NCBI GenBank assembly: GCA_021734045.1
Contig: JAIPJR010000052.1
Coordinates: 1-21,310, forward strand
Origin: Fidelibacterota bacterium
GTDB taxonomy: Bacteria > Fidelibacterota > UBA8477
Direction of reading: 5' to 3'
DNA: 21,310 nucleotides
The first letter of the stretch is position 1; every line of letters begins with the position of its first letter. Positions 3,977 to 21,096 of this stretch are shown here, one piece after another. Both the position numbers and the translations under genes were made by a program. Under the pieces are notes generated by a model. The model saw nothing but the letters and a program-made list of their open reading frames with translations. It was not told the origin of the DNA and ran no database searches.

Positions 3977-5155
3977 ATGCAGGGTATCTCTCTAAATCCC
4001 GGCAAATTGGTTGCCGCTGACGAATTACCTGGAACGCTGATTCGTGAATTGGTGGTCATCCGCCGAATCGGCTGGCTGGTATTGGTTGCTGGTTATTTCG
4101 TTATGGGTCTCACCTGGTACTGGGGCGCGGCAAATCAATGGGTCCTCCAGACCGGAATTCTCTGGTGGTTCGTCTATTACCAATTGGTGAGAAAGATTGA
4201 TAAGAACCGGGCAGCAGCCGATGCTCAGCTTTACGATACATTGGGCTGGGGGAACCGGCTTACGCTGGTGCGGGGTGGATTAATCGCGATCGTCGGTGGC
4301 TTTGTTTTCCAAAACTGGTCGGCAGGCATTTGGGGCTGGATACCGGGCATTTTCTATACCCTGGCAGCGATTATCGACCGGGTAGATGGGTATGTGGCCC
4401 GGAAAACCCGCCAAGTGAGTCTTCTGGGGCGGGAACTGGATACGGTATTTGATGCGTTAGGGTTGGCGGTAGCGCCTTTATTGGCGGTGTGGTACGGGCA
4501 GGTGCACTGGAGCTACCTGTCGGTCAGTCTGGCCTATTACCTGTTTCAGTGGGGACTGAAACGACGACGAGACAGGAATCTTCCCGTCTATCCTTTACCA
4601 CCCAGTTTTCTGCGCCGGGCATTGGCTGGTTTTCAGATGGGCTATATCGCCGTGGTGCTCTGGCCGGTCTTCCAACCACCGTCAACCCAAATTGCCGGTG
4701 TAGCATTTATGATACCGGTTTTAATCGGTTTTTGTGTGGACTGGCTCCTGGCTACCGGACGACTTTCAATTTCTTCTCCAATCAGGCGGCGGATAACCCT
4801 ATTTGGTGAAACCATTTTCCTGCCGGCTTTACGGTTGCTTTTAATCTGGCAACTTGGGGTTATCGCTGAACGGGTGGACTATGTCCTGATTCCCGGAGAA
4901 AGTGTTTCTTTCACCAGTATCCTTTTCGGGTACACCTTTCTGATTCTTGCGGGAATGATTCTGGTCGGTGTGGCGGGACGAATTGGTGCGCTAGCACTCA
5001 TTGGCTTCATGGGCTGGCATTATCTATCTCATCCAATCCTGCTGTCCGATTATCTCGCCATTTTCAGCCTGGTTTGGTTGCTATTACTGGGGACGGGGAA
5101 ATTCAGCCTCTGGCAATGGGATGAGGACTGGGTGAACCGTTACGACGGAACTTAA
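3977..5155 (+). CDS. CDP-alcohol phosphatidyltransferase family membrane protein
   Basis: This 392-aa protein carries the full CDP-alcohol phosphatidyltransferase signature: D134-x2-DG(137-138)-x2-AR(141-142)-x8-G151-x3-D155-x3-D159. These residues bind the two metal ions and the CDP moiety. The usual upstream NxLTLxR-like block is present as NRLTLVRG (93-100). The family transfers a phosphoalcohol or phosphatidyl group from a CDP-activated donor onto an alcohol, at the inner membrane. The acceptor cannot be told from sequence. At almost 400 aa it is about twice the size of a minimal PgsA or PssA; the extra C-terminal half (from about 200) has five or six hydrophobic segments of unknown role. 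The next gene starts on the base after the stop codon, so the two are coupled. Context suggests a head-group transferase for the neighbouring pterin-like pathway (inference). Confidence 0.87.
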   Translation: MQGISLNPGKLVAADELPGTLIRELVVIRRIGWLVLVAGYFVMGLTWYWGAANQWVLQTGILWWFVYYQLVRKIDKNRAAADAQLYDTLGWGNRLTLVRGGLIAIVGGFVFQNWSAGIWGWIPGIFYTLAAIIDRVDGYVARKTRQVSLLGRELDTVFDALGLAVAPLLAVWYGQVHWSYLSVSLAYYLFQWGLKRRRDRNLPVYPLPPSFLRRALAGFQMGYIAVVLWPVFQPPSTQIAGVAFMIPVLIGFCVDWLLATGRLSISSPIRRRITLFGETIFLPALRLLLIWQLGVIAERVDYVLIPGESVSFTSILFGYTFLILAGMILVGVAGRIGALALIGFMGWHYLSHPILLSDYLAIFSLVWLLLLGTGKFSLWQWDEDWVNRYDGT

Positions 5156-6139
5156 GTGAAATCCGGAACCCGATTGATTCAGGGAATTAGCTGGATTGCA
5201 GCACTCTTGCTGGCCGGTCTGATTTTTTCGCAACTTCCCCTGCATTCCATTTTACAAACAGTGGGCGCTCTCAGTATTGGACAATGGATACTTTGGGCTG
5301 GCTTGAATCTTGGCATCATCGCGTTTCTCACCCTCCGCTGGCAAATTTTGACAACCCTGCTCGGTGGCTCCATCCGTTTTCGTCAATTACTGGCAATCCG
5401 CCAGGCCGGGCAGGCGATTAGTTTTGTCACACCCGGACCCCAGATCGGCGGTGAGCCTTTACAAGTATTTTGGCTGTGGAAAACCTGCGGTATGCCGGGT
5501 GATTCTGCTGTTTTGAGTGTAGCCCTGGACCGGTTTTTCGAATTCTGGTTTAATTTCTCCATTCTCCTGTTGGCTGTTCTGATTCTCATTTTGTCACCGC
5601 TGGCTGATTTGGCGGGTTGGACTCAAATCGGTGTCATTCTGTTGGGCATACTTCTAACGATTGGCGGACTCGTCTGGGTGTTGTTTCAGCGTGCCCGGTG
5701 GATTTCCCGGTGGTTGCAGCAGATGGCCTTTCGTTGGCAAAATCTGCCGCGTTTAAAGCATCTCGATACACACTGGCAATCGATGGCACAGCGCTTTAAA
5801 GAACGGGTTCCATTTCAAAAGCCTGTTCTCCTTCTGGCAGCAAGTGTAACCCTTGCAGGCTGGGCAGGCTTGCTTACTGAACTTTGGCTGCTGTTACGAT
5901 TTCTTCATCTCTCTGTCGATATTTTTCAGTTTATTTTCATCTTCGTCGCCATGCGACTGGCTTTTCTGTTACCATTACCCGGGGGAATCGGCACATTGGA
6001 GACCGCACTATTTTGGGCTTTTCAGGCATTAAATTTCCCTGCCGCTGCTGCGATTGGACTTATCGCCCTGATGCGATTGCGGGACGCTGTTATCCTCGCG
6101 GGTGGTCTTGTTGCCATGCGCAGCGTGAAGCCTTCCTGA
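5156..6139 (+). CDS. LPG-synthase TM / flippase-like integral membrane protein (UPF0104 type)
   Basis: This 327-aa protein has about eight hydrophobic segments. Two conserved blocks identify the lysylphosphatidylglycerol-synthase transmembrane / flippase-like family: FVTPGPQIGGEPLQ at about 90-103, and LPLPGGIGTLE at about 272-282 (usual form PGGLGxxE). The MprF-type aminoacyl-transferase domain is absent, so it is only the membrane part. Members are associated with moving glycerolipids or glycolipids across the inner membrane; the cargo here is unknown. Translation starts with GTG directly after the TAA of the upstream gene, with GGA about 6 nt before it, which indicates tight coupling to the phosphatidyltransferase. 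The pair would make and translocate a lipid product (inference). Confidence 0.85.
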   Translation: MKSGTRLIQGISWIAALLLAGLIFSQLPLHSILQTVGALSIGQWILWAGLNLGIIAFLTLRWQILTTLLGGSIRFRQLLAIRQAGQAISFVTPGPQIGGEPLQVFWLWKTCGMPGDSAVLSVALDRFFEFWFNFSILLLAVLILILSPLADLAGWTQIGVILLGILLTIGGLVWVLFQRARWISRWLQQMAFRWQNLPRLKHLDTHWQSMAQRFKERVPFQKPVLLLAASVTLAGWAGLLTELWLLLRFLHLSVDIFQFIFIFVAMRLAFLLPLPGGIGTLETALFWAFQALNFPAAAAIGLIALMRLRDAVILAGGLVAMRSVKPS

Positions 6140-6170
6140 ATTATTTAAACAATCCATCTGGGGAAACGGT

Positions 6171-6752
6171 TTGCGCTGGTTGATTTTGAGTGTGTATCTC
6201 GTCCAATTCATTGAAATCATCTGGTTTCCAATACCCAGTGACGTATCCACCCTGCGATTGGTGCGTTCGGGAGAACGACGTCCCTGGGTGCTTTTGACTG
6301 TTGGGTTATTGGGCATTTTCACCTTTCATCTGCCACTACTATTTATCACTTATCCGGAGATCTTGAAACAAATGACCCCGCTCCTGCCACCCGGGCTCCA
6401 GCCGATCCCGGCATTCATGACAATGTCCTTTCTGCTGTTGGGCTCAGCTTTCACAATTTTGGGTGTGCGGGCACTGCGGATGAGACAGAAAAATGCCCCA
6501 GACGCGCTGACCACAGCCGGGATTTACCGGATTTGCCGCCACCCCATCAATCTGGGATTAATGCTCATTATGGTGGGATTCATTCTGGTCTATCCATACT
6601 GGATCATGGTACCGGGAGCAGTGGCATTTTTTTACAACCTGCACACCCGGTCCTGCTGGGAGGAGAAGCGCTTACTTTTGGTGCATGGTGAAGGTTATCA
6701 GGCTTATCAGCGTCGGGTAGCCATGTATGGTTTACGCGTAAAGCCAAAATAA
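6171..6752 (+). CDS. Isoprenylcysteine carboxyl methyltransferase-like membrane methyltransferase
   Basis: This 193-aa protein has four to five membrane segments and the C-terminal hallmark of the ICMT/phospholipid methyltransferase family: GIYRICRHPINLG (117-129, family form GxYRxxRHPxYxG) and then EEKRLLLVHGEGYQAYQRRV (164-183). The RHP and paired Glu contribute to SAM binding and membrane methyl transfer. Bacterial members methylate lipids or unknown membrane substrates; few act on prenyl-cysteine. The start is TTG at 6171 after the purine stretch GGGGAAA; there is no in-frame ATG upstream. The gap to the preceding gene is 31 nt, so it is third in the operon. Its last 46 nt overlap, tail to tail, the end of the SAM methyltransferase gene on the other strand. 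Confidence 0.83.
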   Translation: MRWLILSVYLVQFIEIIWFPIPSDVSTLRLVRSGERRPWVLLTVGLLGIFTFHLPLLFITYPEILKQMTPLLPPGLQPIPAFMTMSFLLLGSAFTILGVRALRMRQKNAPDALTTAGIYRICRHPINLGLMLIMVGFILVYPYWIMVPGAVAFFYNLHTRSCWEEKRLLLVHGEGYQAYQRRVAMYGLRVKPK

Positions 6753-7624
6753 TCCTGGTTGGCGGCAAAATAATGCAGCTCGCCAGCGGCTAATTGACTC
6801 CGCCGCTCATTAACCCAATCCGAAACCCCCTGAAGTCCCGCCAACGCTTGTTCAATGGTATCCAGAATATTGGCAATAAAATCCCGGGGCCCGTTATCCG
6901 TCTGGTCATTGCCTTCAAGCGACCAGTTGGACTCACCTGTGGCCACGACTGTATGTCCGGCCTCCCTCAGCCATTCACCTAAATGCAAACCGGTTCGACT
7001 GGCCTGCCAGGTGAGTTCCGGAAATCGCCAGTCCATATCGTGGTGATATGCTCGTAGAATATCATCATCCCGGGGATGGGGCGGTTCGAAAACCGTTTTA
7101 CCGGTATAATTCAGACTGAAATAATACGCAGCGCCCGGTTTCAGACGGTCCAATATGCGTGGTAAGAGCAGCGGTACGGGCAATAAATCTATCACAGCAT
7201 GGCCAATGATCAGATCATAAGTCGCTGGTGGCATGTCATCCACCATTTTTAAAATATCACCGGTTTTCCAATTGATTTGGACGTCCGCGTCCCCGGATTC
7301 AACCTGCCACGCCTCCTGATTGGTGGTGAATACTTTTTTATGTTGGACACACCAGCGATCCAATGTTTTCTTGGCGGAATTCTTAAAATCCGGCTCTACT
7401 TCAATTGCCGTGTATGTCGCATTTTTTAACAAATCAGCTTCCAGCAATCGCTGGATCATGGTGCCAATGCCGGCCCCGATTTCCAAAATCTGAAGCGGCT
7501 CACCCGCCTGCCGTTCATGGAGAAAAACCGCCAACTGCTTCCAGACTTCAGGATTCAGGCTGGCGTCGTCTATTCGTTTCTTAATCGCCAGATATTTTCG
7601 GTAATCGAATGGAGCGACGGTCAA
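6707..7624 (-). CDS. Class I SAM-dependent methyltransferase
   Basis: This 305-aa protein has motif I at ILEIGAGIGTM (46-56), an acidic post-I strand (TAIEVEPDF), and a motif-IV-like segment DLIIGHAVIDLLP. It is a soluble Rossmann-fold methyltransferase; the substrate is not evident. I set the start at TTG 7624, which overlaps the glycosyltransferase stop as TTGA and has GGAG 8 nt upstream. A reading from 7672 would overlap the previous gene by 52 nt and add 16 residues without family character. The resulting N-terminus (MTVAPFDYRKYLAIKKRIDD) fits methyltransferases I remember from similar neighbourhoods. It is last in the soluble pterin-type gene set and overlaps the convergent ICMT-like gene by 46 nt. 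Confidence 0.85.
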   Translation of the reverse strand: MTVAPFDYRKYLAIKKRIDDASLNPEVWKQLAVFLHERQAGEPLQILEIGAGIGTMIQRLLEADLLKNATYTAIEVEPDFKNSAKKTLDRWCVQHKKVFTTNQEAWQVESGDADVQINWKTGDILKMVDDMPPATYDLIIGHAVIDLLPVPLLLPRILDRLKPGAAYYFSLNYTGKTVFEPPHPRDDDILRAYHHDMDWRFPELTWQASRTGLHLGEWLREAGHTVVATGESNWSLEGNDQTDNGPRDFIANILDTIEQALAGLQGVSDWVNERRSQLAAGELHYFAANQDYFGFTRKPYMATRR

Positions 7625-8703
7625 ACCAGTGTCTCCAGGAATGCGCGAATTGTTGCACAGCTCTGCTGCCATGTGGGATGCCGACGGTAGGCGTGGCGGG
7701 CATTTCGGCTCAGGGTGAGAAGCAGATTCCGATCATCATGCAGATGTTTTAACCTCAGGGCTAAATGCTGATGAGAACCCGGAGGAATCAAATAGCCGTT
7801 CTTACCGTTGGTGATAATTTCTTTCGCCGCACCGGCCGTGGTACCGATAACCGGTAGTCCAAACTGCTGGGCTTCCACATACACGATTCCGTACCCTTCC
7901 AACGTTGACGGCAGCGCCATCACATGGTGCGTTTGGTATAATGCCGCCAGATTGGAACCGCGAACCGGCCCCCGAAAGCTCACCTGTTTTTGCAGACCGA
8001 GTTTTGACACCAGGTTTTTAATCTGTTGTGCATAGCGGGGTTCCATATCGGTCCGGCCGGCCACGGTAACCTGGTAATCGTCCCGCGGTAACTGCCGCAC
8101 CGCCCGAATCAGCACATGGAGTCCTTTGCGGGGAATGACATTGCCCACGAAGAGAATTTTCAGCGGTCCGGGCGCTGTCATGTGGTGCGGAATTTTTTGC
8201 GGCTCGATTTTCACCCGGGGGAAATTATCACCGGCCGGTACTGCCACCGCATGGGGTGGCAATTCGCCCCCCACGAGCGACTTCGCCTGTTGAAGCGAGG
8301 TCTGACTGTTAAGAATCAGACCATCCACGGATTTGAGATGTCTCCGCTCCCCATGACGATACAACCAGGCGCTGTACACCGGATGGGCATCAAAACTGGT
8401 CAGGAGATGGACCAGGCTTACGATGGGGTAGCTGGCCGTTCGTCTCAGGTGGTCATTCAACCCGAAAACAGCCGGGTGCACCCATTCATCCTCAATCAGT
8501 ATATCAAGGTCAGCTTCTTCAATCGACGGGATTAATCGGTTGCCCGGTTGGTGACGACGGGACTGCCAGTACGAACCGGGTGGGATGCTGAAAATCATCA
8601 CGTCATCGGCGTGATCTTCCAGATATTCCACCAAACGCGCATCATACAAATACCCACCACTGAGGGTGTTAAGTTCACCATAAATTACCAAGCCAATGCG
8701 CAT
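7621..8703 (-). CDS. Family 4 (GT-B) glycosyltransferase
   Basis: This 360-aa protein fits the GT4 fold. The N-terminal domain has the acceptor-side loop SGGYLY (15-20). The C-terminal domain opens with LFVGNVIPRKGLHVLIRA (184-201) and carries the EGYGIVYVE motif (269-277), the E-x7-E that holds the donor sugar nucleotide. GT4 enzymes are retaining transferases using UDP-, GDP- or ADP-sugars; donor and acceptor are unknown here. Start ATG 8703 has no clear ribosome-binding site and lies 20 nt after the PTPS-like gene, so coupling is likely. Its stop overlaps the TTG start of the methyltransferase. Its place between a PTPS homologue and a methyltransferase suggests glycosylation of the pathway product (inference). 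Confidence 0.88.
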   Translation of the reverse strand: MRIGLVIYGELNTLSGGYLYDARLVEYLEDHADDVMIFSIPPGSYWQSRRHQPGNRLIPSIEEADLDILIEDEWVHPAVFGLNDHLRRTASYPIVSLVHLLTSFDAHPVYSAWLYRHGERRHLKSVDGLILNSQTSLQQAKSLVGGELPPHAVAVPAGDNFPRVKIEPQKIPHHMTAPGPLKILFVGNVIPRKGLHVLIRAVRQLPRDDYQVTVAGRTDMEPRYAQQIKNLVSKLGLQKQVSFRGPVRGSNLAALYQTHHVMALPSTLEGYGIVYVEAQQFGLPVIGTTAGAAKEIITNGKNGYLIPPGSHQHLALRLKHLHDDRNLLLTLSRNARHAYRRHPTWQQSCATIRAFLETLV

Positions 8704-8723
8704 TTTTTTGAAAGAAGCGGCGC

Positions 8724-9101
8724 TTAAAAAGCCTGCCTGAAAGCGGCCCAGTTGGTCTCATTCTCCCACAACTTCACGGTAAATGTACCGGGGCCGGACG
8801 GTTCAATAGCCCGGAGCAACCGCTGACACAGAATCCGACTAAAATGCTCCAAGCTTGGATTCAGATTTTTGAACTCGGGTAATTCATTTAACAGGCTATC
8901 CCGATAATACTCCAGGGCATCATCCAATGCTGCTTCAATGGTCTCAATATCCACCAGGTAACCATGTTCATCCAATTCCGAACGCTCGATTTGAATCTCC
9001 GCGGCATAATGATGGGCGTGCGGGTCATTTTCCACACCCCAATCGCCACCGATGAGATAGTGTCGGGCGATAAAGTCTCGTTTTACTGCAACTGTATACA
9101 C
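8724..9101 (-). CDS. 6-pyruvoyl-tetrahydropterin synthase / QueD superfamily protein with Glu at the Cys position
   Basis: This 125-aa protein has the length of a single PTPS/QueD domain. Zinc ligands are His14 (ARHYL), His28 and His30 (HAHHY). The catalytic cysteine that sits four residues before the HxH pair in QueD and PTPS is replaced by Glu24 (ENDPH). A Cys-to-Glu exchange at this place defines the PTPS-III group, reported to make 6-hydroxymethyl-dihydropterin from dihydroneopterin triphosphate; whether that applies here is open because GTP cyclohydrolase II does not make that substrate. Later blocks are VDIETIEAAL, NLNPSLEHF and LWENET. I chose GTG 9101, with AAGGA 8 nt upstream, over a TTG at 9137 that has no such site. 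It follows the dehydrogenase gene by 86 nt. Confidence 0.85.
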   Translation of the reverse strand: MYTVAVKRDFIARHYLIGGDWGVENDPHAHHYAAEIQIERSELDEHGYLVDIETIEAALDDALEYYRDSLLNELPEFKNLNPSLEHFSRILCQRLLRAIEPSGPGTFTVKLWENETNWAAFRQAF

Positions 9102-9187
9102 GTGGATATTCCTTTCTTGAGATTCATTTCTTCCCAAACCAAACGAAGCCTGATTAAGGCGTCACTGTTCATTGGTGATTTACTTTT

Positions 9188-10219
9188 TTAACTGTCATAA
9201 ACGAAAACCGCCTGGAGTACATCTTCCGGTGTTTGATCCAAGAGCTGATAGGCATCGGCAGCGGAGGAGAAGGGAATCCGGTGAGTGATGAATTGCTCCG
9301 GATGGGTCCGGCAGATCATGTCCCAGGCGACTTGAAGCCGGCGGGATTTTTCCCAGCGACCGGTGAGGTGCGGGGCAAGTGTACTAACCTGACTGCTGAT
9401 GAGTTGCATGCGATTGCGGTGAAAGCGCCCACCCAAATTTAGCGGTGTATTTTTGTCACCATACCAACTTCCTACCACAATCCGGCCCGAAAAACTGGTG
9501 AATTCAATGGCCAGATTCAATGCGTCCGGATTGCCGCTCAATTCGAATACCAGGTCTGCTCCATCCTTCGGCTGATGCATGTGCAGCGCCTGTTTCAGGG
9601 TGTTGAGTTCAATTTCAAAACCCGGATGGAGGGCTTTATCCACAGCCAGTCGTTGAGCCAAATGTCGCCGCTCCTCGAGGGTTTCGAGGGCATAAAGTCC
9701 TGCCAATGGAAATGCGTTTAGCAGGCTGGAAACCAGCAAGCCCAAGACACCCTGTCCGATGACAATGACACGCTCACCGATTCCCGGGGCGGCGTCCTGG
9801 ACCAGATTCACAGCCGTTTCCATATTGGCAAGAAAAACTGCGGCCAGGGGATCCATTTCTTCCGGTAACGGAAAGACCTGATCCGGCGTAGTGATGAAAT
9901 GAGACGCGTGCGGTTGGAAGGCAAAAACCAATTTATTCTGCCAGTCCGGATCCACACCAGAGCCAACGCCCTCGACACGACCGACGGCGGCGTATCCGTA
10001 TTGCAGAGGATAACTGTTTTGGTTTTCCAGACTTGGCAGGGAATCATCAAGCGTCATGGTCGCCGGAATTTGATGGCGATAGACCAACATCTCCGTTCCG
10101 GCACTGATAGCTGAATACCAGGTGCGCACGAATACCTCATCCGATTTAAGCGCTGGAAGCTCTACCTCCTGAATGGTTACGGTGCCTGGCTCGGTAAACC
10201 ATAATTGATGTGCTTTCAT
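9188..10219 (-). CDS. Medium-chain dehydrogenase/reductase lacking zinc ligands, BchC-like
   Basis: This 343-aa protein is a full-length MDR enzyme with a GroES-like N-terminal domain and a Rossmann domain whose GQGVLG loop (155-160) binds NAD(P). The catalytic-zinc sites of alcohol dehydrogenases are gone: the usual CGTD reads AGTE (40-43) and the usual GHE reads GYA (75-77). There is no four-Cys structural zinc loop. The pattern SAISAGTEMLVYRHQIP with YPLQYGYAAVG closely resembles the BchC branch (bacteriochlorophyllide 3-hydroxyethyl oxidation), so an oxidoreductase acting on a bulky ring side chain is plausible, though not chlorophyll. A label of zinc-dependent alcohol dehydrogenase would be misleading. 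The ATG overlaps the reductase stop as ATGA, with GGGG 7 nt upstream. Confidence 0.86.
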   Translation of the reverse strand: MKAHQLWFTEPGTVTIQEVELPALKSDEVFVRTWYSAISAGTEMLVYRHQIPATMTLDDSLPSLENQNSYPLQYGYAAVGRVEGVGSGVDPDWQNKLVFAFQPHASHFITTPDQVFPLPEEMDPLAAVFLANMETAVNLVQDAAPGIGERVIVIGQGVLGLLVSSLLNAFPLAGLYALETLEERRHLAQRLAVDKALHPGFEIELNTLKQALHMHQPKDGADLVFELSGNPDALNLAIEFTSFSGRIVVGSWYGDKNTPLNLGGRFHRNRMQLISSQVSTLAPHLTGRWEKSRRLQVAWDMICRTHPEQFITHRIPFSSAADAYQLLDQTPEDVLQAVFVYDS

Positions 10220-10929
10220 TCCTCATCCCCTTGGTAAGCTAACCGCCCCCAAATAATTTGATCGTCACCCAGCACCGCCGTGTGCATCGCACGCAACCGG
10301 GGTAATTTTTCAATCGGATGACGCCCCAGATCACCCGTGGCATTATAGCCCCCAATGATTCGAGGTGCGATGGTTAGAATCAGTAAATCAGCCAGTTTGG
10401 ATTTTAAAAAATTGGTAATAACCCGCGCCCCACCTTCGACCATGAGGCTGGTAATGCCCTGTTTCCAAAGTGTCTCTAATACGGATACAAGTGGCACGTA
10501 CCCCTGTTCGTCAGGCGGCAAGGTAAATAGTTGCGCATGGTCAGCCAGCTCCTGTTTTCCCGGGTGAGTTGTAAATAACCATGGTTCGTGATTCGGATGG
10601 TTAAATAGTTGGGCATGCAGGGGAATGCGTAAGCGGGTGTCTAAGACGACCGGCCGGGGATTCGGACCCTGCCATGACCGGGCTGTGAGGCGGGGATTAT
10701 CAGCTAAAATTGTCCCAACACCCACCAGAATGGCATCGTGAAGTGTACGTAATTGGTGGGTTAGTTGATGTGCTTGATTGCCGCTGAGGGCGTAGGATTC
10801 GCCAGCCTGAGGGGTAATGCTGCCATCCCAGCTTTGGGCATAGGCAAGGGTCACATAAGGGCGTTGACGGACCGGGGAATTTTCCCTGCGCTCACGAAGC
10901 CATTGTTCAATCTGTTGGTTGAGGTTCAT
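10216..10929 (-). CDS. Stand-alone RibD C-terminal (pyrimidine reductase) domain protein
   Basis: This 237-aa protein matches the HTP/DHFR-like reductase half of RibD: PYVTLAYAQSWDGSI (24-38), ILVGVGTILADNPRLTAR (67-84) and VEGGARV (164-170), which bind NADPH and the ribosylamino-pyrimidine phosphate. The N-terminal zinc deaminase domain of bacterial RibD is absent. Stand-alone reductases of this type occur in archaea and fungi, where reduction precedes deamination (MJ0671, Rib7). The likely substrate is the product of the adjacent GTP cyclohydrolase II. Its ATG lies 23 nt inside that gene. Bacterial riboflavin synthesis normally needs the deaminase; its absence here suggests diversion to another product (inference). 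Confidence 0.88.
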   Translation of the reverse strand: MNLNQQIEQWLRERRENSPVRQRPYVTLAYAQSWDGSITPQAGESYALSGNQAHQLTHQLRTLHDAILVGVGTILADNPRLTARSWQGPNPRPVVLDTRLRIPLHAQLFNHPNHEPWLFTTHPGKQELADHAQLFTLPPDEQGYVPLVSVLETLWKQGITSLMVEGGARVITNFLKSKLADLLILTIAPRIIGGYNATGDLGRHPIEKLPRLRAMHTAVLGDDQIIWGRLAYQGDEE

Positions 10930-11563
10930 GGGAATCGTTGCCGCTGGTGGCGGCCCTATCGGATTTGATCTGCAACAGGTGATTCATGCGCTCGGCTTTG
11001 GTGAGCAGGTAAGCTGCGTTTTCCGGTGTGACAGCCCCTTCCAGCGGGATGCGGGCATTGACCCGAATGTCTTCCGCCTGAAGCGCGCTAATTTTAGATG
11101 GATTATTCGTCATGAGCCGGACGGACTTTACACCCAATTCATCCAAAATACGCGCTCCCACGGTATAATCCCGCTCATCCGCCTGATGACCCAGCAACAA
11201 ATTGGCATCCACGGTGTCATAGCCCTGATCCTGGAGATTGTAGGCTCGTAATTTTTGCAGCAACCCGATTCCGCGTCCCTCCTGTCTGAGATAGACGATG
11301 ACACCCCGACCCTCCGTAGCGATTAACTGTAGTGCCCGCTGTAATTGCTCACCGCAATCGCAGCGCCGGGAGCCCAGGACATCGCCCGTAAAACATTCGG
11401 AATGGATTCGCACCAGCACATCGTCCGCTTGATCCACATCCCCCATGATCAAAGCCAGGTGCTCTTTTTCATCATCAGTATTTGTGTAATAACAGAGTTG
11501 AAATTCACCAAATGCGGTGGGAAGCCGGGCGCAGGTGACACGCGTTACAAAGGGAGGTGACAT
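10907..11563 (-). CDS. ribA: GTP cyclohydrolase II
   Basis: This 218-aa protein is a complete single-domain GTP cyclohydrolase II. The zinc cysteines Cys57, Cys68 and Cys70 lie in HSECFTGDVLGSRRCDCG, and RQEGRGIG (93-100) holds catalytic and GTP-contacting residues. The enzyme opens the imidazole ring of GTP, releasing formate and pyrophosphate, to give the 2,5-diamino-6-ribosylamino-pyrimidinone phosphate. The DHBP synthase domain of RibBA fusions is absent. The C-terminus is about 20 residues longer than E. coli RibA (about 196 aa) and polar. The ATG at 11563 lacks a ribosome-binding site. No FMN riboswitch lies upstream, which argues against ordinary riboflavin-supply control. It is the first gene of the pterin-type set, 73 nt after argS. 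Confidence 0.93.
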   Translation of the reverse strand: MSPPFVTRVTCARLPTAFGEFQLCYYTNTDDEKEHLALIMGDVDQADDVLVRIHSECFTGDVLGSRRCDCGEQLQRALQLIATEGRGVIVYLRQEGRGIGLLQKLRAYNLQDQGYDTVDANLLLGHQADERDYTVGARILDELGVKSVRLMTNNPSKISALQAEDIRVNARIPLEGAVTPENAAYLLTKAERMNHLLQIKSDRAATSGNDSHEPQPTD

Positions 11564-20408: not shown

Positions 20409-20436
20409 TTTGAACAACGATGGGATGAGACACCTC

Positions 20437-21096
20437 ATGTCGCATGGCATCAAAGTCCTCGCCGTATTTGCCACCTCTCTGGACGGGCGTTTGGGTCCGG
20501 CGGATGTATCGCGATTCGTGCGGATTAGCTCAGATGCCGACATGGAACACCTCATGCGGGTGCGTGATCTGGCCGATGCCGTCCTCATGGGCGCTGCCAC
20601 CTTCCGGCATTATCCCAAACCACATGCGGGTCTGGAGCGCGACGATTTTCCTGTTCACTGCATTATGACCCGCAGGGGTGAATTGGATTTTTCAGCTAGC
20701 TTATTTCAGCAGAGCCCGCCCCTGCCTGTAACCATTTTCTCCTCTGCCAATGCCCCGGATCATTTACCGGAAAAGGTGAACTGGCTGAGCGTACCGGAAC
20801 TGGAAAATTCAGACGGCCGCGGCATATCAGAAATTTTAGCGCATTTACAGAATCAGGGAATCAAAACACTGCTGGTGGAAGGTGGCGGCCAGGTGTTTCG
20901 TCAATTCTTAGCCGCCCGGGCGGTGGACGAACTCTACTTAACCCTGGTTCCGCATTTCATCGGGGGCGAAACCAGCCCGCGGCTCACCGGTTTTGGTGCG
21001 GCATTACCACAACCCTTTCCCCGGACAACGACCTTAGAAAGCTGGGCAATCGGAAATGAGCGCTATTACCACCTGGCCATCCATTACGATGGATAG
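20437..21096 (+). CDS. RibD C-terminal / dihydrofolate-reductase-like protein (second copy in window)
   Basis: This protein has 219 aa from ATG 20437; earlier in-frame starts (TTG 20410, ATG 20425) are possible but lack a better site, and the purine stretch GATGAGA sits at a suitable distance from the chosen ATG. Blocks typical of the HTP reductase fold are VLAVFATSLDGRLG at the N-terminus, AVLMGAATFRHY, and TLLVEGGGQVFRQF, followed by DELYLTLVPHFIGG. It probably binds NAD(P)H and a pyrimidine or pterin-like substrate. It is only distantly similar to the RibD-C protein at 10216-10929 and has no deaminase domain. It follows ctaB with a 28-nt gap. A role in riboflavin, folate or a respiration-linked cofactor cannot be decided. 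Confidence 0.82.
   Translation: MSHGIKVLAVFATSLDGRLGPADVSRFVRISSDADMEHLMRVRDLADAVLMGAATFRHYPKPHAGLERDDFPVHCIMTRRGELDFSASLFQQSPPLPVTIFSSANAPDHLPEKVNWLSVPELENSDGRGISEILAHLQNQGIKTLLVEGGGQVFRQFLAARAVDELYLTLVPHFIGGETSPRLTGFGAALPQPFPRTTTLESWAIGNERYYHLAIHYDG

Follow-up and report, generated by a model that had tools for sequence, protein, structure and literature searches.

We analysed a 21,310-nucleotide stretch of DNA (the window; positions 1 to 21,310 of contig JAIPJR010000052.1, assembly GCA_021734045.1) from a Fidelibacterota bacterium, in which positions 3977 to 11563 hold a cluster of nine genes on two converging strands. An earlier note, made from the letters of this stretch, had named these nine genes and their families, and the open reading frames and their Pfam and NCBIfam profile matches bear it out. 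The minus strand encodes a stand-alone GTP cyclohydrolase II (GCH II) without a RibB domain (10907-11563; PF00925, E=1e-71; NCBIfam ribA above cut-off), a stand-alone RibD C-terminal reductase domain (RibD-C; 10216-10929; PF01872, E=2.3e-45; TIGR00227 above cut-off), a BchC-like MDR dehydrogenase without zinc ligands (9188-10219; ADH_zinc_N), a PTPS-like T-fold protein (8724-9101; open reading frame to 9137; PF01242, E=1.1e-24), a GT4-type glycosyltransferase (7621-8703; PF00534, E=6.9e-37), and a class I S-adenosylmethionine-dependent methyltransferase (6707-7672 as the longest open reading frame, with uncertain start; PF08242/PF02636). The plus strand encodes a CDP-alcohol phosphatidyltransferase (3977-5155; PF01066, CDP-OH_P_transf, E=1.4e-15), an LPG_synthase_TM or flippase-like membrane protein (5156-6139; PF03706, E=9e-30; TIGR00374 above cut-off), and an accessory PEMT/ICMT-like membrane methyltransferase (6171-6752; PF04191, E=2.1e-7). 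Of the three gene overlaps claimed earlier (23, 4 and 4 nucleotides), those between GCH II and RibD-C (23) and between RibD-C and MDR (4) are exact; that between GT4 and methyltransferase is 4 nucleotides if the latter begins at a TTG overlapping the GT4 stop, and 52 with its longest reading frame. GTG 9101 is the probable start of the PTPS-like gene and is favoured over TTG 9137 because all aligned relatives begin there. Riboflavin, folate and queuosine genes beyond this set are absent from the window, and promoter and terminator scans gave results at chance level.

Conservation of the cluster was examined by an MDR alignment scan of 84,980 genomes, which returned at least 590 relatives and 80 loci; every locus was then searched with profiles made from seed members. 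Neighbours within 8 kb of the MDR gene were counted in 57 well-covered loci, defined as those with 7 kb or more to either side of that gene. A PTPS-like gene was found in 55 of these 57, GT4 in 56, the methyltransferase in 47, RibD-C in 33, and GCH II in 25, with a GTP cyclohydrolase III (GCH III) in 4 more; the CDP-alcohol transferase and the flippase-like gene occurred in 30 and 26, respectively. Order and strand are likewise kept: the PTPS-like gene follows the MDR gene in 90 of 90 loci, the methyltransferase follows GT4 in 65 of 68, and RibD-C precedes MDR in 50 of the 66 loci having both, adjacently in all 50 and with overlap in 38. Because this arrangement is conserved in loci from many phyla (hosts include Proteobacteria, Chloroflexota, Thermodesulfobacteriota, Gemmatimonadota, Streptomyces, and haloarchaea), the gene set is far beyond chance, and that it constitutes a dedicated pathway is nearly certain. 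The earlier note had suggested that similar sets recur in distant phyla such as Actinobacteria, and the neighbourhood comparison proves this correct.

In an MDR protein search, these neighbouring genes recurred on plasmids from haloarchaea, Methylosinus, Streptomyces, Rhizobium, Thiodictyon, and Microbacterium. When the window's phylum was approached from the PTPS side, all five genomes with strong matches (E<1e-33) carried the cluster, and all four weaker matches whose surroundings were examined were without it. In the MDR tree, the sequences of the window and its congener fall within a well-supported gammaproteobacterial group (100/98) and separate from that of a further genome of their phylum, which makes horizontal transfer of the cluster likely. 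Two contigs labelled as Klebsiella pneumoniae metagenome bins (L031, L033) also carry the cluster; their MDR proteins group with those of environmental Gammaproteobacteria, and the bins are probably mislabelled.

By family, GCH II and RibD-C belong to riboflavin synthesis, and the locus might be taken for an incomplete riboflavin (or F420) precursor operon whose neighbours are there by chance. This we regard as exceedingly improbable. RibB and RibH were found in none of three genomes of the window's genus (G000, G001, G002), with all control genomes positive, and RibH in none of 14 Chloroflexota carriers tested; on these grounds a riboflavin or F420 precursor operon was rejected for the window host. 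Further points against it are the missing deaminase domain of the RibD protein, the conserved gene neighbours, and the GCH II copies that gammaproteobacterial carriers possess in addition to a ribBA-sized one. As regards riboflavin, this explanation is refuted for the window host, barring the case that all three genomes have a lumazine synthase that was overlooked. Since it is without RibB and RibH, the genus is an apparent riboflavin auxotroph, and the genome check proposed earlier thus finds that the cluster is not its source of riboflavin. The cluster enzyme is the only GCH II in the window's assembly, and 5 of the 14 Chloroflexota carriers also have a single GCH II, sited in the cluster.

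The window GCH II scores above the PF00925 cut-off and, aligned with an E. coli reference sequence, retains the cysteines for zinc and the catalytic Tyr found in the classical enzyme. This residue is Met in two Streptomyces enzymes only (L014, L118) and Tyr in the other 43 readable cluster enzymes; in both exceptions, a creatininase-family gene lies beside the Met-type GCH II. The Met-type enzyme SCO6655 of Streptomyces coelicolor reportedly stops at the formamide (work attributed to Spoonamore, 2006). In haloarchaea, a PF05165 GCH III gene overlaps the MDR gene (L012) or adjoins it (L064, L081, L082); GCH III is unrelated to GCH II and yields the formamide of the same pyrimidine. The window RibD protein matches PF01872 alone and has no N-terminal deaminase domain of the bifunctional RibD type. 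GCH II and RibD-C form one polypeptide in three loci (L017, L043, L070) with no deaminase between them, and a creatininase is fused to RibD-C in L092, again without a deaminase domain, and overlaps it in L091 and L118. The creatininase genes exceed the PF02633 cut-off and match the ArfB model only below cut-off; the fusion to RibD-C supports their candidate role as ArfB-type deformylases. Because of these four independent features (GCH II-RibD-C fusions, haloarchaeal GCH III, Met-type GCH II with a creatininase, and creatininase-RibD-C fusion or overlap), the entry compound of the cluster is likely 2,5-diamino-6-ribitylamino-4(3H)-pyrimidinone 5'-phosphate. The window holds another stand-alone RibD_C/pyrimidine-reductase-like gene roughly 9 kb away from the cluster (20410-21096, plus strand), which the congener G001 keeps with 89% identity (L016, 2070-2723, minus strand).

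Alignment confirms that the MDR protein is without zinc ligands, as had been read from the sequence earlier: S-x-GTE and YGY stand in place of the catalytic Cys and the GHE His of zinc MDR alcohol dehydrogenases. Membership of BchC was rejected (TIGR01202, 73.7 bits vs a cut-off of 291.25). An acidic residue of the NAD type ends beta-2, with D or E there in all 13 aligned sequences, and its nearest relatives of known structure are for the most part polyol and secondary-alcohol dehydrogenases, including sorbitol, xylitol, and galactitol-1-phosphate dehydrogenases. In five Anaerolineae loci (L036, L042, L045, L057, L059) a ComB-like gene of the 2-phosphosulfolactate-phosphatase family lies between MDR and PTPS, which fits a phosphorylated intermediate.

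The PTPS-like protein keeps the T-fold and, in 73 of 73 aligned sequences, His14, Glu85, and the pterin-anchoring Glu113, as expected of the PTPS superfamily fold. Its predicted structure (pLDDT 97.3) is closest in the PDB to 3d7j, the solved structure of SCO6650 from Streptomyces coelicolor (TM 0.89), followed by E. coli QueD (TM 0.82). No catalytic Cys is present at the CxxxHGH position in the 73 sequences, and the Asp-His pair is replaced; assignment to PTPS-I/QueD and PTPS-II was rejected on these grounds. The PTPS-III motif ExxHGH is also missing, since clade A has ExxxHxH with the HxH zinc pair kept and clade B has AQxxHGA; some Anaerolineae proteins are without the second zinc His. By the published class motifs (PMC5041015), and having neither CxxxHGH nor CxxxxxHGH nor ExxHGH, the cluster protein falls outside PTPS-I, -II, and -III, and its sequence marks it as a pterin-site protein with changed chemistry. 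Several relatives deserve separate mention. Three Streptomyces plasmids (L115, L116, L117) carry orphan PTPS-like genes, 76-82% to the cluster form, which adjoin cupin, MBL-fold, and BTAD-regulator genes and are without the cluster. On Haloarcula marismortui pNG700, the PTPS-like gene is split over two frames and unannotated (L011, 10021-10455), by frameshift or sequence error; at the corresponding place, the Haloarcula sinaiiensis cluster has an annotated 6-carboxytetrahydropterin synthase match.

In place of a pterin, the product might stay a pyrimidine: the diamino-ribitylamino-pyrimidinone (or a breakdown product) would be glycosylated directly, as in vicine, with the MDR and PTPS-like proteins modifying its chain without pterin ring closure. 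The shared GCH II first step, the glycosyltransferase in nearly every cluster, the missing catalytic triad of the PTPS-like protein, and the usual presence of GTP cyclohydrolase I (GCH I), which would make a second pterin route redundant, all favour such a pyrimidine product. It is nonetheless unlikely in our judgement, given that the pterin-type binding pocket is kept in 73 of 73 PTPS-like proteins and that vicine-type chemistry needs no C1' reduction by RibD-C.

The glycosyltransferase and methyltransferase, which are fused in L092 and L097, would decorate the product. The window protein and 42 of 47 relatives have the CDP-alcohol transferase motif DxxDGxxAR-8/9-GxxxDxxxD intact, and among the 37 loci with both this gene and the flippase-like one, 26 have them side by side. 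Together the two proteins suggest that the product is linked to lipid or exported. The ICMT-like gene, a local accessory, occurs within the locus set only in the window and L017. On a reading centred on these lipid genes, the ribityl chain is kept: the transferase would attach a phosphatidyl (or archaetidyl) group to the polyol phosphate of a ribityl-pyrimidine or pterin, the lipid would be flipped, and GT4 and methyltransferase would decorate a head group that might be redox-active or UV-absorbing. The intact motif, the pairing with the flippase-like gene, and the occurrence of the transferase in clusters of both Bacteria and haloarchaea speak for such a lipid, as do genes for lipid-binding YceI (near the cluster in 11 loci) and a cytochrome b561-like protein (in about 8). 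We nevertheless hold it to be improbable, given that about half of the well-covered loci have no CDP-alcohol or flippase-like genes nearby and that minimal clusters exist, such as that of the Rhodobacteraceae SC52 plasmid (L119), with MDR, PTPS, methyltransferase, and RibD only and without GT4, GCH II, or lipid genes. The membrane anchoring that the earlier note had considered possible is thus plausible, with weaker support than the rest of its proposal. A further recurring membrane protein lies near the cluster in 14 loci (including L015, L017, L051, L068, L095, and L120) and is sulfatase-like by a weak Pfam match in L015.

Given the observed gene conservation, active sites, fusions, and absence of riboflavin genes, we propose that the cluster product is a GTP-derived dihydropterin, glycosylated and methylated and perhaps lipid-linked. 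GCH II would open GTP to 2,5-diamino-6-ribosylamino-4(3H)-pyrimidinone 5'-phosphate, or the same compound would be reached via the formamide, through GCH III in haloarchaea and through Met-type GCH II with a creatininase-family deformylase in Streptomyces. The deaminase-less RibD-C would then reduce C1' to give the 2,5-diamino-6-ribitylamino compound, thereby retaining the 2-amino group of a pterin. The first step and the reductase chemistry are established for these enzyme families. The NAD-type, zinc-less MDR would oxidise the C2' hydroxyl of the ribityl chain to a ketone, with which the 5-amino group could condense to form a 7,8-dihydropterin whose side chain is a polyol of the neopterin type; GCH I produces the same skeleton through an Amadori shift. 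The PTPS-like protein would bind that intermediate and promote ring closure or a later side-chain step; GT4 would add a sugar and the methyltransferase a methyl group; and the CDP-alcohol transferase and flippase-like proteins would probably link the product to phospholipid and/or move it across the membrane. We infer the substrates of the MDR and PTPS-like proteins, the ring closure, the acceptor of GT4 and methyltransferase, and the lipid or transport step. The original suggestion of a dedicated route to a pterin or pyrimidine that is glycosylated and methylated is supported and fits all the evidence; the full stepwise pathway is more tentative, and we give it somewhat less than an even chance. 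Its boldest form, in which a GCH I-independent pterin route of C1' reduction and C2' re-oxidation ends in a glycosylated, methylated pterin on a membrane phospholipid, common to Bacteria and Archaea, is doubtful.

Several points weigh against this pathway. The chief one is the presence of GCH I (FolE) in 21 of 25 carrier genomes as well, so that a neopterin-type product could be reached from that enzyme, which argues for another product or for separate regulation. GCH II or III and RibD-C are missing nearby in many loci (at least one of them is present in 40 of the 57), and about half of the loci do without the CDP-alcohol and flippase-like genes. In clade B the PTPS-like proteins are without the third zinc His, so that the protein might serve for binding and not for catalysis.

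The distribution of FolE bears also on whether the early cluster steps might replace a missing GCH I in the window host and feed folate synthesis. The two cluster-bearing genomes G000 and G001 are without FolE and FolE2 but have FolB and FolK; FolE is present in their congener G002, which has no such cluster, and in 17 of 20 genomes from the order. Such a replacement is very unlikely, however, considering that the two assemblies are only 92% and 82% complete, that 21 of 25 other carriers keep FolE, and that folate requires no GT4, methyltransferase, or lipid enzymes; as a general replacement of GCH I by the cluster, it was rejected on the FolE count. The earlier statement that ribE, ribH, folate, and queuosine genes are lacking holds for the window; in the assembly RibB and RibH are absent as well, whereas FolB and FolK lie on another contig.

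The conservation of this set across many bacterial phyla and in haloarchaea points to an as yet unnamed metabolite. The genes are few in number, and laboratory organisms are among their carriers. Its pathway would explain the retention of GCH II in riboflavin auxotrophs, the role of uncharacterised SCO6650-type PTPS homologues, and the creatininase-family proteins beside bacterial RibD-like reductases. No described version of the whole cluster was found in open-licence literature. The pathway is new as a whole and built of known families, one member having been noticed earlier in Streptomyces; the claim that it was undescribed thus stands for the pathway, with the caveat of SCO6650, whose solved structure was deposited as uncharacterised.

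SCO6650 belongs to the same subfamily as the window protein, of which it is the best sequence and fold match, and Streptomyces loci carry the same gene set with Met-type GCH II; the cross-phylum cluster and the fusions are absent from the open-licence literature consulted on it. Its authors reportedly found no zinc and no PTPS activity, in keeping with the motif analysis, and the same group is said to have studied SCO6655. More broadly, the PTPS, QueD, and PTPS-III proteins (COG0720) share the T-fold, the first zinc His, and the pterin-binding glutamates; the cluster protein differs in having neither their motifs nor the catalytic Cys and Asp-His pair, and in lying beside GCH II, not GCH I or QueC/QueE. 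The riboflavin pathway (RibA/RibD; archaeal ArfA-ArfB-ArfC) resembles the cluster in its GCH II or III, in the creatininase-family deformylase of some clusters, and in the stand-alone pyrimidine reductase, which gives the archaeal step order. It differs in that the cluster has no deaminase, RibB, RibH, or RibE, ends in GT4, methyltransferase, and lipid genes, and often resides in hosts without lumazine synthase. The pterins of cyanobacterial pterin glycosides come from GCH I, and cyanopterin carries a methylated sugar. These glycosides (cyanopterin, biopterin glucoside; PMC13259868) likewise involve a glycosyltransferase acting on a pterin, but without GCH II, RibD-C, or MDR. According to a 2026 review of bacterial pterins (PMC13259868), GCH I is the source of folate, biopterin, and monapterin, and molybdopterin has a separate route from GTP. 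The cluster may also be set beside two known diversions of the GCH II product from riboflavin. Vicine synthesis in faba bean, of which GCH II is the first enzyme, leads to a glycosylated pyrimidine, and the RibA/TrpF folate bypass of Chlamydia leads to dihydroneopterin. The cluster differs from both in that RibD-C reduction and the proposed MDR re-oxidation would replace spontaneous or Amadori chemistry.

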